Shown here in pieces: positions 20,561 to 28,640 of a stretch of DNA of 42,811 nucleotides; the stretch's first letter is position 1, and every line of letters starts with the position of its first letter. Source of the DNA: a virus. Location: positions 1 to 42,811 of the IMG/VR virus record IMGVR_UViG_3300050821_005908. One strand, 5' to 3'. Both the position numbers and the translations under genes were made by a program. The notes beneath the pieces are model-generated. The model had not been told where the DNA came from and made no database searches. It was given only the letters and a program-made list of their open reading frames with translations.

Positions 20561-20781
20561 TAGGCATCACCCAACAGCCGGTTGAACGCTCGCTGAACAA
20601 CTTCCACAATATCGCTCACAATCTGCTGCTTGTCTGGCCGGGTTTTCAGGTAGTCGCCAATCTCAGTCTCTATGCTAACCGCCAGACCGTATTTGTCGCC
20701 ACGCTTAATCACATTGACCTGTAGCAGCTTTTTGCCAGGTATCTCGTCGCTCTCTATTATGCTTGTACCAGCGAATCGCAT
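20560..20781 (-). CDS. Hypothetical protein, 73 aa
   Basis: ATG 20781 abuts the nuclease gene stop and its stop overlaps the next ATG. Beta-rich start (IPGKKLLQVNVIKRGDKYGL), then a helix (KQQIVSDIVEVVQRAFNRL). Function not recognised. Confidence 0.55.
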   Translation of the reverse strand: MRFAGTSIIESDEIPGKKLLQVNVIKRGDKYGLAVSIETEIGDYLKTRPDKQQIVSDIVEVVQRAFNRLLGDA

Positions 20782-21542
20782 TAGTCCGACTCCATTGCAC
20801 TGACCACCTTGTCAGCCGTCACCTTGCCAATGCCCTCGACCCTGGCCCATTCAGCCGGATTGGCCATGACCATCGCCCGCGTGGTCTTGAAATAGCTAGC
20901 GGCATCTTTCGATCGCTGCCACCCGACGCCCGGCAATTGTGCAGCTATTCGTCGTCGCAACGATGGCCTGATCAGCAGCGCCGCATCGGGCCGGTCCTCA
21001 TGGAACGTATGCAGCGACCCGTGACTGGCCCAGTCTTTCGCCCACCAGGACTCCAGCGCCAGTATCGTCTGGACAGTCTCGCTAATGCAGCTGGTCCTGA
21101 TCACTTTAATCCCGGCCATATTGCTGATCGACTCCAACCAGTTGACGAACTGGCGATAGGTATAGCGCGATCGGCCTGAGCTGGCATCGGCCCAGTAGCC
21201 GCCAAAGTTCTTCCCGTCCCAGAACTCCACTCGGCCACTTTCTTTGCTAGGGTAGCGATACCCAATCTGCAATATACCCTCCGGTCCCGATCTAATCAGA
21301 CCTTCGACGATCATGTAAGCGCGATCGTACGATTGGACCAGGCCGGGTACCTGGTGCGATGTAAACCGGCCATCGCTCAGGCAGGCCAGCGCATCGGCCA
21401 CCCGTTTAAGCTCAATCCCGACCGCGACCTCGCCAGTTGGCCCTTGCCCGGTGAAGGCACAGTCGCCATAGTCCAGCATGGTCAGCTGGGCGTTTGGTCC
21501 GAGCAATGGCGCCAGATGGTTCGATCCTATTCGTTTGTCCAC
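20781..21542 (-). CDS. XPF/ERCC4-family structure-specific nuclease with HhH domains, 253 aa
   Basis: Residues 22-60 carry the ERCC4 nuclease core: MLDYGDCAF then GIELKRVADAL, in which Glu44, Lys46 and Asp50 reproduce the E-x-K-x3-D signature of the XPF/Mus81 family. DGRFTSHQ and a SYDRAYMIVEGL strand follow, also typical of ERCC4 domains. Two helix-hairpin-helix motifs at the C-terminus, LPGVGWQRSKDAASYF (about 203-218) and VEGIGKVTADKVV (about 235-247), give non-specific DNA binding. The enzyme probably cleaves flap, fork or Holliday-type junctions during phage recombination or before packaging. Confidence 0.8.
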   Translation of the reverse strand: MDKRIGSNHLAPLLGPNAQLTMLDYGDCAFTGQGPTGEVAVGIELKRVADALACLSDGRFTSHQVPGLVQSYDRAYMIVEGLIRSGPEGILQIGYRYPSKESGRVEFWDGKNFGGYWADASSGRSRYTYRQFVNWLESISNMAGIKVIRTSCISETVQTILALESWWAKDWASHGSLHTFHEDRPDAALLIRPSLRRRIAAQLPGVGWQRSKDAASYFKTTRAMVMANPAEWARVEGIGKVTADKVVSAMESD

Positions 21543-24932: not shown

Positions 24933-25037
24933 CTAAAACTTGATCCCGTTACAGTTCGGACATCCAACCTGGCCGCACGTCTCCCGCCCCATGCGGCCAC
25001 ACGCTGGATCGTAGCTAAAGACCCACTTCCTCGCCAT
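24933..25037 (-). CDS. Putative zinc-ribbon micropeptide, 34 aa
   Basis: ATG 25037 overlaps the end of the 258-aa gene in another frame. The peptide has four Cys (Cys13, 21, 26, 29) in ACGRMGRETCGQVGCPNCNG, spacing C-x7-C-x4-C-x2-C, suited to one zinc ion. It fills the 24912-25014 gap. No strong ribosome binding site, so the call is tentative. Confidence 0.4.
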   Translation of the reverse strand: MARKWVFSYDPACGRMGRETCGQVGCPNCNGIKF

Positions 25038-25791
25038 TGGTGGTCCAGCCGCCAGCTTCAGCCTGGGCTACCAGCCATTCGGGCGTGACTGTTTTCTTGA
25101 GCGCGGTTGCTTCAGCCGATGGCATCTTGGCTTTGAGCGCGGCGAGGAACACGCTCGTTTGGAGCTTGCCAATCTGCATCGTGGCGCCATCCTGTTTGGC
25201 CAACGCTTCCTGTACCGCCGCGATGGCCGCCTCATCGCCCGAGCCATTTGCCGATGCTGACGCGGTCGAAGTAGCTGGCGGCTGCTTCCCGGTAGCGGTC
25301 GCAGCTTTCGGTGGCGTGGCCTTGGTGGCAGAACCGGCAGTAGGGCGCTTGGCACCAGTGGCACTGGGCAGCGCTATAATCTTGTCCACCAGCAGCACGG
25401 TCTTGTCCCGCTCGCCCGCTTTGTCCAGCCCCGGCATCTTGGGCATGGCCGACCGTTTTAGATGGACCTTAGCGCCCTCGAATACCCGCACGTCCGCTTC
25501 AACGTTTGGGTAGTCCAGCTTGATCAGGCTGTCAATAAACATCTTGGCCTTGGACTTGAGACTAAGGACCGATTGAAATCCAGTGCCATCGTCAGTGGGC
25601 AGTGCCGCTCCACTCGAATACGCTTCAATGTGCGGCTCATCCAACCCGGCGTCCAATGTAACGATCAGGGCATTGGTCGTCTGCCCGGTTGTATAGGTAT
25701 ACTCGCCCGTTTTGCATGACTTGATTACCGCTTCAGTGTCATCCAGAAAGCCACCCGCCGACCCGTCCTTTAACGATACTCCACCCGCCAT
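25015..25791 (-). CDS. Hypothetical DNA-metabolism operon leader protein, 258 aa
   Basis: ATG 25791 follows AATGGAGGTGGTAA, an ideal ribosome binding site. Residues 1-130 are beta-rich (KSCKTGEYTYTTGQTTNALI, GTGFQSVLSLKSKAKMFID) and may form one compact domain. An Ala/Thr/Pro/Lys-rich linker spans about 140-185, and a C-terminal helical domain has EAAIAAVQEALAKQDGATMQ and PEWLVAQAEAGGW. First gene of the leftward operon that carries the recombination enzymes, so an ssDNA-binding or replication-accessory role is plausible but not shown by any motif. Confidence 0.65.
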   Translation of the reverse strand: MAGGVSLKDGSAGGFLDDTEAVIKSCKTGEYTYTTGQTTNALIVTLDAGLDEPHIEAYSSGAALPTDDGTGFQSVLSLKSKAKMFIDSLIKLDYPNVEADVRVFEGAKVHLKRSAMPKMPGLDKAGERDKTVLLVDKIIALPSATGAKRPTAGSATKATPPKAATATGKQPPATSTASASANGSGDEAAIAAVQEALAKQDGATMQIGKLQTSVFLAALKAKMPSAEATALKKTVTPEWLVAQAEAGGWTTNGEEVGL

Positions 25792-25845
25792 TTACCACCT
25801 CCATTTTTCAATTGCGATCAATTGGTCCCAATTACTTGCGGGATG

Positions 25846-25875
25846 TAGCTAGCCAGAACCGGAGAACGATGTCAA
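25846..25875 (-). promoter_or_regulatory. Candidate promoter of the leftward operon
   Basis: On the minus strand TTGACA (25875-25870) is a perfect -35 hexamer. An 18-nt spacer leads to TAGCTA (25851-25846), a weak -10. The first gene starts 55 nt downstream at 25791. The AT-rich tract CATAAAAT just upstream may act as an additional -10 or UP element. Confidence 0.4.
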
Positions 25876-25880
25876 GAGAA

Positions 25881-25922
25881 ATTTTCAACTATTTTATGGC
25901 CTGTGGGTGGTTGTGTGGATAA
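25881..25922. other. Putative replication origin core: AT-rich tract plus perfect DnaA box
   Basis: TGTGGATAA at 25914-25922 is the reverse complement of the consensus DnaA box TTATCCACA. It lies beside an AT-rich stretch ATTTTCAACTATTTTATGG (25881-25899), in the divergent gap between the leftward operon and a RepA/AAA_25-like ATPase gene. Phages that recruit host DnaA often place the box in this setting. Only one perfect box is seen, so origin function is inferred. Confidence 0.45.
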
Positions 25923-25959
25923 CTCGGTACGGTATCGCACACTAGGGTCGAATACGGTC

Positions 25960-25988
25960 TTGACAGTACTAGTGGCCCGTACTATAAG
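25960..25988 (+). promoter_or_regulatory. Strong sigma70-type promoter of the rightward ATPase gene
   Basis: TTGACA (25960-25965), exactly 17 nt, then TATAAG (25983-25988). The spacer holds an inverted repeat AGTAC (25965-25969)...GTACT (25978-25982), possibly an operator that overlaps the -35/-10 elements. It is 95 nt upstream of the TTG start at 26084. This is the best promoter match in the window. Confidence 0.7.
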
Positions 25989-25990
25989 CG

Positions 25991-26012
25991 GTGGCGCCAC
26001 TGTGTCGCGACA
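25991..26012. promoter_or_regulatory. Two adjacent perfect palindromes, candidate operators
   Basis: GTGGCGCCAC (25991-26000) and TGTCGCGACA (26003-26012) are each 10-bp perfect palindromes, separated by 2 nt and lying from just after the -10 box into the transcribed region. Their position over the expected transcription start suggests binding of a dimeric repressor. The HTH protein at 31445 is a candidate ligand, unproven. Confidence 0.5.
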
Positions 26013-26039
26013 GGGGCTCCCGCCACGGGATTGGCCAGC

Positions 26040-26075
26040 GGTAGGACGCCCTCTACTCTCAAGGGTGGTCCTACC
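26040..26075 (+). promoter_or_regulatory. Leader RNA hairpin before the ATPase gene
   Basis: GGTAGGAC (26040-26047) pairs with GTCCTACC (26068-26075), extended inside by CCCT (26049-26052) with AGGG (26062-26065), leaving a 9-nt loop. It ends 8 nt before the TTG at 26084 and no Shine-Dalgarno lies between, so it may control translation or act as an attenuator. No U-tract follows. Confidence 0.5.
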
Positions 26076-26083
26076 CGGCCATA

Positions 26084-26881
26084 TTGTCTGAGGGTACTGT
26101 TACGTCGAATCAAAACGGCGACGATTCTCTATTTATTGTTGACAAGATACTGCCTTGTAATCGAGTCCATCTTGCGGCTGGCATCAGCAGTGCCGGCAAG
26201 TCCCGTTTCCTCATCCCCGCGCTCATCTTGCAAGCAGCCGGCGTCCCGATGCTGGGCCTGCAATCGTTCCCTGTCCCGTGGTGCATGGTTTGCCGCGATC
26301 GCCCACTAGCCGATGCCCAAGACACGGTACGTTCCATCGGCTTCGACCTGGGCGATGTCCATATCATTCCTGCATTCGGTAAACACAGCAAGATATTGCA
26401 CACGATTATGACCGAAGTTCAGGATTACGGAGCCAAACTTGTATTGTGGGAAGGCTTCGACATGATGGTACGTAGTCCGAACAATCCAAGCGAGGTCGGT
26501 GACTTCCTTAGCCAGATCAGCGCCTATTGCGAGGAAGGATTGACGGTATTGGGCACGGTCGGAATTGCCAAGCTCAAGCCGCACGAGATGTACGATAACC
26601 CTCGTCAACTAGTCGCCGGGTCCTCAGTCTGGGAACGCGCCAGTAGCACCAACTTTATCATCCGCTCGATCAATCCCAAGGACATCGCAGATGGTCGTCG
26701 TCTTCTTTACGTCTCTCTCAAAAACTCTCCCAGCTTTGCCGTCAAAGGCGATTTTGACGATAACGGAATGCTGATTTTTGAGGACTACGCCTATCGCCAA
26801 GACGGCGCCGACATCGCTAAAATTATCGGCGCTCGCAACCGAAATGGTGCTGGAAAGAAGCAAAAACGCTATGAAAAGTGA
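26084..26881 (+). CDS. RepA/AAA_25-like ATPase, about 265 aa
   Basis: The frame starts at TTG 26084; the start is uncertain because no ribosome binding site is evident. Walker A GISSAGKSR lies at about 33-41, with a downstream acidic strand KLVLWEGFD (118-126) as Walker B. Further RecA-like features are the short helix after the P-loop (FLIPALILQAAG) and LTVLGTVGIAKLKP near residue 160. This matches RepA/AAA_25-type hexameric ATPases of plasmids and phages, used as replicative helicases or helicase-loading factors. It is transcribed from the strong promoter next to the DnaA box, supporting a replication-initiation role. Codon usage is AT-richer than in the late genes. Confidence 0.7.
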   Translation: MSEGTVTSNQNGDDSLFIVDKILPCNRVHLAAGISSAGKSRFLIPALILQAAGVPMLGLQSFPVPWCMVCRDRPLADAQDTVRSIGFDLGDVHIIPAFGKHSKILHTIMTEVQDYGAKLVLWEGFDMMVRSPNNPSEVGDFLSQISAYCEEGLTVLGTVGIAKLKPHEMYDNPRQLVAGSSVWERASSTNFIIRSINPKDIADGRRLLYVSLKNSPSFAVKGDFDDNGMLIFEDYAYRQDGADIAKIIGARNRNGAGKKQKRYEK

Positions 26882-26928
26882 CCGTAACTGTACCCCCGTT
26901 GCCATACTTACGGTTAAGTCCTTTGTTT

Positions 26929-26961
26929 TTGACAGTGAGAGAGTTAACCATCTGATATAGA
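26929..26961 (+). promoter_or_regulatory. Weak candidate promoter for the 71-aa gene
   Basis: TTGACA at 26929-26934 is a perfect -35. The best -10 candidates are GATATA (26954-26959, spacer 19) or TATAGA (26956-26961, spacer 21), both with poor spacing. A purine-rich tract (GAGAGAGGGGG and AGAAAGTGAGAGAGAAGAG) follows up to 27000. Confidence 0.3.
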
Positions 26962-27033
26962 GAGAGGGGGCTAGGAAGAGAAAGTGAGAGAGAAGAGTGC
27001 CTGGTCGAATCTAAAGGACTTACAGGAGACATC

Positions 27034-27249
27034 ATGGACTGGCAAGATGAACTAGCTGGGATGGGTTTAGAGCATGCCGCGATCACGTTTTGGGACGGCA
27101 AGGATATAATTTTGACTATTTGCAACCCCAACTGGAGCGAAGAAAAACGGCAAGAGTTCGCAAATAAAATGATGCAATTTCAGGTTAGCAATCACAAGAA
27201 CTTGAATATCGAAGAATTGCTCGCTGGCGTTAAGAGTAAGCTAGCCTGA
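27034..27249 (+). CDS. Small acidic hypothetical protein, 71 aa
   Basis: ACAGGAGACATC precedes ATG 27034. The product is compact with mixed charge (MDWQDELAGMGLEHAAITFW, NWSEEKRQEFANKMMQFQVS). Lone gene between the ATPase gene and a convergent minus operon. Size and position fit early host-takeover or anti-defence proteins, but there is no motif. Confidence 0.6.
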   Translation: MDWQDELAGMGLEHAAITFWDGKDIILTICNPNWSEEKRQEFANKMMQFQVSNHKNLNIEELLAGVKSKLA

Positions 27250-27306
27250 TCGCCGCCTCCAACCGGGCTATCCTGATCGCCAGCAGCCTATCCATTATCG
27301 AGCGGG

Positions 27307-27618
27307 TCATTGGCTAGTGGCCTTAGTGATTGCAGCCCGAATGGTAAGAAATGGTTCGTTGGTGAGTTTGCCACCCATAACAAATTCAGGTTGAGCATCG
27401 TACTGAGTCATCAATAATTGACACGCCGCCAATAGTTCTGGTGCGGCAGCAATCAGACGAGCATTCTCAGTTAATACCTCTATTCCCCATTCATCATGGC
27501 CCCACGCACGAACAATCGATTCTTTGTTTGGACCGATTAAGTCGGGACCACAATGGCCCCAGTCGTTGACTCCATCTGATTTATGAGTCCAGTGCCACGG
27601 TCCCGGTGTATGGCTCAT
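27307..27618 (-). CDS. Conserved phage hypothetical protein (NARLIAAAPELL family), 103 aa
   Basis: The motif TENARLIAAAPELLAACQLL at about residues 50-69 is a hallmark of a very widespread phage hypothetical family, and the start SHTPGPWHWTHKSDG is also typical of it. Function unknown in the family. Last gene of the minus-strand mini-operon; its start overlaps the upstream stop by 4 nt. Confidence 0.8.
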   Translation of the reverse strand: MSHTPGPWHWTHKSDGVNDWGHCGPDLIGPNKESIVRAWGHDEWGIEVLTENARLIAAAPELLAACQLLMTQYDAQPEFVMGGKLTNEPFLTIRAAITKATSQ

Positions 27619-27821
27619 GCCGCCCCCTTTGGCGCGAACAGTTTCTTAATCGCGTCCCAATTCGTCTCGCTTTTAATCTTGGCCAGACAATCGGGGCATA
27701 TCCCGGTCGACTCTGGCCCAGGCAGATCGCGCATCACTTGCTTGCACCAACCGCATACCAGCCTGAGCGGGAAGTCAGCCAGGTCATTCTCAACTTGACG
27801 GTCGTACGGTTCAATTGCCAT
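27615..27821 (-). CDS. Zinc-ribbon protein, 68 aa
   Basis: ATG 27821 follows AGAAAGGAACACGCCG. Two CxxC knuckles, LVCGWCKQV and GICPDCLAK, about 19 residues apart, make a likely zinc ribbon. The longer frame from 27899 is rejected because it overlaps the upstream C2H2 ORF. The remainder is helical and charged. Function unknown. Confidence 0.65.
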   Translation of the reverse strand: MAIEPYDRQVENDLADFPLRLVCGWCKQVMRDLPGPESTGICPDCLAKIKSETNWDAIKKLFAPKGAA

Positions 27822-27975
27822 CGGCGTGTTCCTTTCTAATATGGCGCTGCATCCAGACATAGGCTCGCATCTCGGTAGGCAATTTCTTGGTGGCATCAAA
27901 CCAAACTGTCTTTGGTCGTTTGCAATGTGGGCAGGTGACGGTCACTTGCTTGGGCGATCGCTGGTAGCTGCTCAT
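27811..27975 (-). CDS. C2H2-type zinc finger micro-protein, 54 aa
   Basis: ATG 27975 overlaps the upstream TGA (ATGA) and the stop overlaps the next gene by 11 nt. Cys15-x2-Cys18 (VTCPHCKRP) and His45-x4-His50 (MQRHIRKEHADGN) give a C-x2-C-x26-H-x4-H arrangement, long for a classical finger. Operon overlaps at both ends support it. Confidence 0.6.
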   Translation of the reverse strand: MSSYQRSPKQVTVTCPHCKRPKTVWFDATKKLPTEMRAYVWMQRHIRKEHADGN

Positions 27976-28190
27976 GCCGACACCTCAAATTTCTTGATGT
28001 AGTTTTTGCAGCGTGCAAAATCTCGCGGAGTCCAGATGTCGCGTTCTGATTCGCCTTCGCAATATAGGTCAATCTGGAATTGGACCAAGAATACCAAGTC
28101 TGCGACAGTTTTGTGCTGCCCAATATAGTCCAGTCCGGTAATGCACTTCGGCAATTGCTTACGTGCTTGGGCGAAAGTGTAGCTGCTCAT
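27972..28190 (-). CDS. Hypothetical protein, 72 aa
   Basis: ATG 28190 overlaps the upstream stop. Helical, with YTFAQARKQLPKCITGLDYI and FQIDLYCEGESERDIW; four-residue overlaps couple it to both neighbours. No family is recognised. Confidence 0.55.
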   Translation of the reverse strand: MSSYTFAQARKQLPKCITGLDYIGQHKTVADLVFLVQFQIDLYCEGESERDIWTPRDFARCKNYIKKFEVSA

Positions 28191-28294
28191 CGGAGCCACC
28201 ATCCCATCGATAGCAGTCCAATCTCAACCCCGGCCAGCACCGCAAACATGGACCAGATTACGTTGGCCCCGGTGAGGCTAATCTCGCGCTTCAT
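28187..28294 (-). CDS. Membrane micropeptide, 35 aa
   Basis: ATG 28294 overlaps the upstream TGA (GCATGAAG). Basic start MKREISLTGAN, then one hydrophobic helix VIWSMFAVLAGVEIGLLSMG. The ATGA overlaps at both ends support translation. Function unknown. Confidence 0.5.
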   Translation of the reverse strand: MKREISLTGANVIWSMFAVLAGVEIGLLSMGWWLR

Positions 28295-28458
28295 GCTGCA
28301 CCTTCAATCTGCTCCAGCAGCTCAGCAATCGCCATTGCCTCAGTCGGGCCATACCCAATTGGTGAGCCAGGGCCATCGTAGGTATCGTCATCGATTGCAG
28401 ACCAGTCTTGATTGCGATCCGGTATCGGTGGGCAGATAAAGCTCGTTCGGATATTCAT
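28291..28458 (-). CDS. Small conserved phage protein, 55 aa
   Basis: GGAGGCAACACGACA precedes ATG 28458. Sequence with CPPIPDRNQDWSAIDDDTYD and GSPIGYGPTEAMAIAELLEQ is a pattern I recognise from many phage small proteins of unknown function. First gene of the minus-strand unit 28458-27307. Confidence 0.65.
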   Translation of the reverse strand: MNIRTSFICPPIPDRNQDWSAIDDDTYDGPGSPIGYGPTEAMAIAELLEQIEGAA

Positions 28459-28483
28459 TGTCGTGTTGCCTCCACTGGGCCCA

Positions 28484-28503
28484 TGTTAAACTTTCTGTTA
28501 AAC
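28484..28503. repeat. Two direct copies of TGTTAAAC
   Basis: TGTTAAAC at 28484-28491 and 28496-28503, spaced by 4 nt (12-nt period). They lie 26 nt upstream of the minus-strand ATG at 28458, in the divergent region, suggesting operator half-sites for that promoter. Confidence 0.45.
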
Positions 28504-28561
28504 ACCAGCTATAGTACTTTCGGTTCAATTTTTGCTAGTACGTGCGGCCAGGGCCAAACTG

Positions 28562-28570
28562 TGCTATGAT
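28562..28570 (+). promoter_or_regulatory. Candidate extended -10 promoter for the late region
   Basis: TGCTATGAT (28562-28570) is an extended -10 element: TG-N-TATGAT, 5 of 6 matches to TATAAT. No good -35 exists. A perfect -35 TTGACA at 28723-28728 without a clear -10 is a second option. Either would start the transcript into the packaging genes. Confidence 0.4.
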
Positions 28571-28640
28571 CGCGCCAGAGTACGACCCCGTAGCATCCGA
28601 TGAGTAGTAGGGGGCCCTGTTTCGGCACCGGGACACGCCA

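Follow-up and report, generated by a model that had tools for sequence, protein, structure and literature searches.

The intergenic region at 25792–26083 of IMG/VR virus record IMGVR_UViG_3300050821_005908 raises the question of what is controlled at a point where leftward and rightward genes part, a preliminary description having taken it for a combined replication origin and genetic switch. The window analysed here is the entire record of 42,811 bases, classed as linear, and belongs to an uncultivated P22-like podovirus. It carries a portal gene of the P22 type (phrog_156, E 1.5e-80), near 28–32% identical to its closest GenBank relatives, in addition to scaffold, head protein and terminase genes. 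No phage DNA resembling the 24–30 kb stretch was found. Leftward genes run from 25.8 kb (P0002, a Cas4/RecE-like exonuclease, HNH, an SNF2-type helicase and a DNA methylase) and rightward genes from 26.1 kb (an ATPase, HNH, terminase and portal); with a leftward ATG at 25791 and a rightward ORF from 26084, transcription diverges here as had been proposed. The ORF at 20781–21542, which we take to be ERCC4-like from reading its translation, had no match in a PHROGs search. We also noted that approximately 1.7 kb 3′ of the ATPase gene (26900–28600) is devoid of a convincing long ORF, and the ORFs tried within it had no family match.

All of the motifs that had been listed for the region were recovered at or very near the positions given for them, among them the following.

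25865–25904: AT-rich stretch, 67.5% AT
25870–25875, minus strand: −35 box TTGACA of the leftward promoter (motif search; relatives read by eye)
25914–25922, minus strand: match to the DnaA box, TTATCCACA
25960–25988, plus strand: rightward promoter TTGACA-N17-TATAAG, at the same position in relatives

The rightward promoter, described beforehand as strong, consists of TTGACA at 25960–25965 and TATAAG at 25983–25988, and is the only site matching 11 of 12 consensus positions on both strands of the window; at least one such site occurred in 18 of 60 shuffles, and a scan demanding T at the last −10 position overlooks it. By reading, the AGTAC/GTACT repeat in its spacer was confirmed at 25965–25969 and 25979–25983. 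The two back-to-back 10-bp palindromes are likewise present (GTGGCGCCAC at 25991–26000 and TGTCGCGACA at 26003–26012) and are the sole pair of this kind in the window, yet 22% of shuffles have one, and 10-bp palindromes of such type number 32 in the window against a shuffle mean of 50.7. A perfect −35 box does lie on the minus strand, where TTGACA reads from 25875 to 25870, and the AT-rich stretch around it is matched by only 0.2% of 40-bp windows. The perfect DnaA box also exists and is the sole exact one in the window, though 0.23 are expected per window by chance and at least one copy occurred in 21 of 100 shuffles; the looser TTWTNCACA is found twice, against 2.06 expected. Singly, these motifs are close to chance, and it is their conservation in relatives that lifts them. 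Three CAATTG/CAATTA direct repeats in 10-bp steps (25809–25834) were also observed in the leftward leader, directly before the SD of P0002, and had partly been listed as a palindrome.

Five related contigs were available for comparison.

L002, 3300044797_000055: carries relatives of the ATPase and of P0002
L005, 3300050821_001146: carries relatives of the ATPase and of P0002
L006, 3300032782_000011: carries a relative of the ATPase; no P0002 relative found
L009, 3300050821_003742: carries a relative of the ATPase; no P0002 relative found
L003, 3300050821_002747: carries a relative of P0002, and an unrelated AAA+ gene in place of the ATPase

A TTGACW box on the leftward side was read by eye in all five, and the layout with TTGACA/T boxes on both strands is repeated in these relatives, with no clear −10 in L006. 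Recurrence of the layout makes the divergent promoters, including a strong rightward one, well supported, and together with the TTGACW boxes it is the best evidence that the region is a real control region. By this sequence comparison, the region is well supported as a two-way gene control region that would set a leftward replication/recombination operon against a rightward gene for a RepA-fold ATPase. The leftward promoter would drive an operon encoding an SSB-like protein, exonuclease-like and ERCC4-like proteins, the helicase and the methylase, and the rightward promoter would drive genes starting with the ATPase and continuing to packaging and head genes. Palindromes resembling TTCCATGGAA, possibly repressor sites, adjoin a TTGACT −35 box in four relatives (L002 3122–3139, L005 5521–5532, L006 5803–5815 and L003 3961–3980) and are absent from the window.

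The first gene on either side was characterised by sequence and predicted structure.

26084–26881, plus strand: P0001, RecA/RepA-fold ATPase gene with the Walker A motif GISSAGKS (fold model; relatives)
25015–25791, minus strand: P0002, predicted OB-fold ssDNA-binding-like N-terminal domain and winged-helix-like C-terminal domain (AlphaFold, Foldseek and VIA)

P0001 combines the Walker A motif and RecA fold of RepA/AAA_25 RecA-like ATPases. Its homologues were confined to four IMG/VR contigs (54–63% identity), with none in GenBank phages, plasmids or genome contigs, and a sequence search of the PDB returned no match. The AlphaFold model is of low confidence (mean pLDDT 53.2); Foldseek related it to RecA-fold proteins (E 3e-9 to KaiC), and VIA-align placed RSF1010 RepA first (1olo, Z 11.7, rmsd 3.0, 141 aligned; 1nlf, Z 10.9). 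RSF1010 RepA is only partly separated, because other VIA matches reach Z 9.6–10.9. It is a hexameric helicase that resembles P0001 in its RecA-type fold, but the two share only ~11% identity over 141 residues, and helicase activity of P0001 is putative. Pfam AAA_25 fell below its curated score (11.8 bits, cut-off 27, E 0.19). Of the label RepA/AAA_25-like that had been given to this gene, the RepA likeness is supported, as a lead from a low-confidence model and not as proof. The P0002 model (pLDDT 66.9) had PrgE of pCF10 as its best Foldseek match (E 0.013, prob 0.92), and PrgE is described as an OB-fold SSB (PMC11137577). The VIA scores for PrgE (Z 5.3, rmsd 4.7, 98 aligned) and for winged helices at the C-terminus (Z up to 7.8) are both below the caution level of 8, and no OB-fold match above Z 5.3 was present in the VIA-align list; the SSB-like assignment is therefore a lead from modelling and not proof. 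PHROGs gave nothing beyond E 0.051 for either protein. In L003, the rightward gene encodes an AAA+ protein (Pfam AAA, E 0.014) that had no BLASTP similarity to the ATPase and is absent from the other five records.

The rightward mRNA would open with a leader of about 90 nt, in which RNAfold predicted three hairpins at all six loci, with a 5′-terminal hairpin in 6/6.

25996–26017, plus strand: hairpin H1, spanning the second palindrome and part of the first (RNAfold centroid)
26018–26030, plus strand: hairpin H2 (RNAfold MFE only)
26032–26081, plus strand: hairpin H3, with a counterpart in the five relatives
26032–26036/26077–26081, plus strand: H3 lower helix
26040–26047/26068–26075, plus strand: H3 middle helix
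26049–26052/26062–26065, plus strand: H3 top helix, with the loop at 26053–26061
26054–26061, plus strand: S2a, loop strand complementary to the SD region
26089–26096, plus strand: S2b, UGAGGGUA, which includes the SD-like GAGGG at 26090–26094

Across the six loci H3 has an upper helix of 6–11 bp, an internal loop and a lower helix of 5–7 bp, and its loop, counted above the upper helix, is 10–20 nt. The SD region that is complementary to this loop lies 8–13 nt after the upper helix. The loop and SD strands (a pairing referred to as S2) are as follows.

Window: UACUCUCA/UGAGGGUA
L002: CCUCCAAUG/CAUUGGAGG
L005: CCGACGA/UCGUCGG; the paired strand stops just before the AGG of the SD
L006: CCUCUGA/UCAGAGG
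L009: CCUCAUAG/CUAUGAGG
L003: CUCCAGG/CCUGGAG

Loop–SD complementarity, the mark of an SD-sequestering pseudoknot leader, was found in 6/6 loci, and the window is the individually weakest of them, with seven Watson–Crick pairs and one G-U. The strongest pairings are those of L002 and L009. The strands differ at most positions among the six leaders with complementarity retained: all 42 of the chosen S2 pairs stand, and among the 720 permutations of the SD strands only the true arrangement reaches 42. The lower helix (30/30 pairs) was likewise matched by 1/720 permutations, and the upper helix (36/36), which is identical in two loci, by 2/720. We found by computation both pairings, their covariation over six contigs and the shared layout. 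Because we chose helix strands and windows by eye ahead of the tests, the p-values err somewhat on the optimistic side, and the sample is six sequences. A permutation of summed duplex energy between the loop and the last 28 nt, with pairs unselected, is the fairer test because only the segments are picked, and here the true arrangement was again the best of 720. Shuffling gave per-locus p-values of 0.002–0.048 in the five relatives and 0.12–0.19 in the window, and a combined Fisher p of 3.5e-6 over the six loci when the larger p of each was used. A closing helix between the 5′ end of the leader and the SD, which RNAfold proposed for several leaders, was rejected at 60/720 permutations.

Scanned without guidance, 223,272 strand-bases contained 28 places with S2 of at least 7 bp, overlapping loci being counted twice, and the SD sites of the five relatives are among the 28. 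An exact-match scan of the window (S2 of at least 6 bp) returned 24 places on the minus strand and 6 on the plus strand, none of which falls in the leader. The motif is thus common by itself, and what is rare is its coincidence with the SD of a homologous gene. As a negative control, at least 106 distinct matches to promoters of the form TTGACW-N12-TGTGCATAAT were examined; some motif lay within 230 bp of six, and among the matches listed two had an SD-type motif, both already known (L003 and L005), with no further leader. In a MAFFT alignment of the six promoter–leader stretches, in which the L003 row is partial, 10/167 columns were invariant, four of them in the TTGA of the −35 box.

We consider it probable, at roughly 0.6, that the leader is a translational switch in which H3 leaves the SD free and a pseudoknot hides it. 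While the H3 lower helix is formed, the SD would be free. Once this helix melts, the loop could engage the SD in an H-type pseudoknot and the ribosome would be blocked, so that the leader would set the timing or amount of ATPase made. By the geometry of H-type pseudoknots, the pseudoknot and the complete hairpin should be mutually exclusive, since only 8–13 nt are left for L3 once the upper helix has formed, and these include the 3′ half of the lower helix. Rough energies put the lower helix at 5.6–11.1 kcal/mol and S2 stacking at 12.7–17.3 kcal/mol; after a pseudoknot penalty of about 7–10 kcal/mol is subtracted from the latter, the two states would lie within a few kcal/mol. H3 is synthesised before the SD, and the default may therefore be the SD-free state. 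We infer where transcription starts, that the pseudoknot turns expression OFF, that the states compete and that some factor tips them. Candidates are a protein (the SSB-like one of the phage or an RNA-binding one of the host), an sRNA, and the kinetics of transcription and translation; whichever of these opens the H3 lower helix would close the SD. The SSB-like P0002 is an appealing candidate by analogy with T4 gp32 (PMC535899), although no homologue was found in two of the six records. If this switch is real, both competing pairings have been kept through almost full divergence of stems and loops and despite a gene swap, and phages that have no known transcription regulation possess a compact timing switch for replication genes.

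The window itself fits the switch less well than its relatives. In addition to the G-U pair, the non-significant shuffle p and the miss in the exact-match scan, its pairing places the SD-like GAGGG within the annotated P0001 ORF, which suggests a start further downstream.

26084–26086, plus strand: annotated TTG start (peptide MSE; no SD 5–10 nt upstream)
26102–26104, plus strand: in-frame ACG, candidate non-canonical start 7 nt after GAGGG, suggested by the SD-to-start spacing of relatives

In the relatives, the start codon follows the SD strand by 3–9 nt, where the window holds the ACG. Translation in the window possibly starts downstream of TTG, perhaps at this ACG by analogy with the relatives, although TTG-TCT-GAG agrees with the MSE with which the L002 and L009 proteins begin. 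Alternatively, the window may be a population variant, or initiation may occur at TTG with the pairing in early codons.

A plainer explanation, which we regard as unlikely, is that the promoters are ordinary divergent ones, the hairpins stabilise the mRNA or act as standby structures, and pyrimidine-rich loops produce the loop–SD match incidentally. The pairing in the window alone is non-significant, a loop with CCUCC is anti-SD-like and pairs any SD, and the leaders of the window (z −1.70; 11/200 shuffles equally stable) and L009 (−1.22) are not clearly more stable than shuffles, as judged by RNAfold; z was −3.75 in L002, −3.16 in L005, −2.64 in L006 and −4.03 in L003. However, the pairing extends past the SD core and covaries, with a mean loop–SD energy of −13.5 kcal/mol for own partners and −8.3 kcal/mol for mismatched loci.

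It appears improbable that the region is an origin or a DnaA-responsive promoter, with DnaA drawn to its box and the AT-rich stretch and the neighbouring RepA-fold ATPase loaded there as the helicase. This proposal draws on the exact box beside an AT-rich stretch in the top 0.2%, on the RepA-like fold of the adjoining ATPase, and on the higher density of TTWTNCACA in the six intergenic regions, with five sites in 1,949 bp and the same number in the remaining 97,511 bp (Poisson p 8e-8). Three of these five sites, however, are the TGTGCATAAT −10 regions of promoters and are therefore not independent of the promoter; sites occur in 4/6 regions, with none in those of L006 and L009. The three sites in −10 regions may mean that these promoters are DnaA-sensitive. 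The box in the window is single, without a cluster of exact boxes, no iteron array was found (no direct repeat >9 nt within 25.7–26.2 kb), and GC skew, one of the checks suggested at the outset, was negative on both sides of the region at 1, 2, 5 and 10 kb without a change of sign. The reading of 25792–26083 as a replication origin is thus not supported, and of the combined origin and switch only the switch survives, in another form, as an SD-hiding RNA leader. It is this leader, with its conserved masking of the SD, that merits further study.

In IncI-alpha repZ, an RNA pseudoknot governs translation of a replication gene, acting as an activator that an antisense RNA blocks (PMC8383071). A repZ-like arrangement, with the hairpin as an antisense RNA target and a pseudoknot that switches translation on, resembles the leader in that, ahead of a replication gene, the loop of a hairpin pairs close to the SD, but is very improbable, as no antisense promoter of at least 9/12 was found within about 230 bp at the six loci (best 8; none in L003), no conserved leader peptide was noticed, and the SD itself lies in the pseudoknot strand here; an antisense RNA over the hairpin was rejected on the same consensus scan.

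The SD-masking switch has other counterparts. SD-hiding pseudoknots are known from riboswitches and from a few phage and plasmid genes, and preQ1-I, SAM-II and SAM/SAH are pseudoknotted translational riboswitches. In these three, as in the leader, the partner of the hairpin loop is a strand further downstream that overlaps the SD (PMC9410914, PMC7367207). In contrast, the stems of the leader are longer, and no conserved ligand pocket is visible, since stems and loops share almost no sequence. At gathering score, Rfam 15 had no matches in the window, L002 or L003; at 25780–26150 of the window there was no match up to E 5, and the leaders of L003 and L005 had far sub-gathering matches only. The leader is outside every Rfam family tested and, judged by its pairings, would work like an SD-sequestering pseudoknot switch. 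No description of a leader of this type was found in the open-licence PMC literature. The T4/RB69 gene 32 operator is a leader pseudoknot bound by the phage SSB (PMC535899); it resembles our case as a phage leader pseudoknot near a replication gene, with an SSB-like gene adjoining here. In T4, however, the pseudoknot precedes the SD on its 5′ side and gp32 acts as repressor of the gene that encodes it, whereas here the SD is inside the pseudoknot and the regulated gene encodes a RecA-fold ATPase, not an SSB. Alternative conformations, one of them pseudoknotted, decide translation of the timP toxin mRNA (PMC11228461), where the folds are also mutually exclusive but the pseudoknotted form is active and the gene is a cellular toxin gene.

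The same leader is kept in L003 before its non-homologous AAA+ gene. It is conceivable, although we would not favour it, that the new phage group has an RNA-based decision module, in which the SD-free/SD-hiding leader would control whichever ATPase gene lies rightward and survive its exchange for an unrelated one, and in L002, L003 and L005 an sRNA encoded between the promoters, which has a terminator of its own and a loop of anti-SD sequence, would block the first leftward gene, masking the SD in both directions. The candidate sRNA gene was observed between the divergent promoters of these three contigs (L002 3186–3300, L005 5731–5856 and L003 3961–4095, minus strand) and not seen in the intergenic regions of the window, L006 and L009. 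A hairpin in it carries (U)CUCCUGAG in the loop, and a terminator-like hairpin and U run come next. Over 8–9 nt the loop is the complement of CUCAGGAG(A), at the SD of the first leftward gene, a complementarity reached in 11, 18 and 8 of 2000 shuffles for L002, L005 and L003, respectively. No convincing homologue of the product of that gene was found in the window, L006 or L009 (best E 0.17). The gene itself (L002 3082 and L005 5477, both leftward, and L003 4208–4381) encodes a conserved basic protein of 57–59 aa with the motif DRVxGNxxxSRKRLQ...
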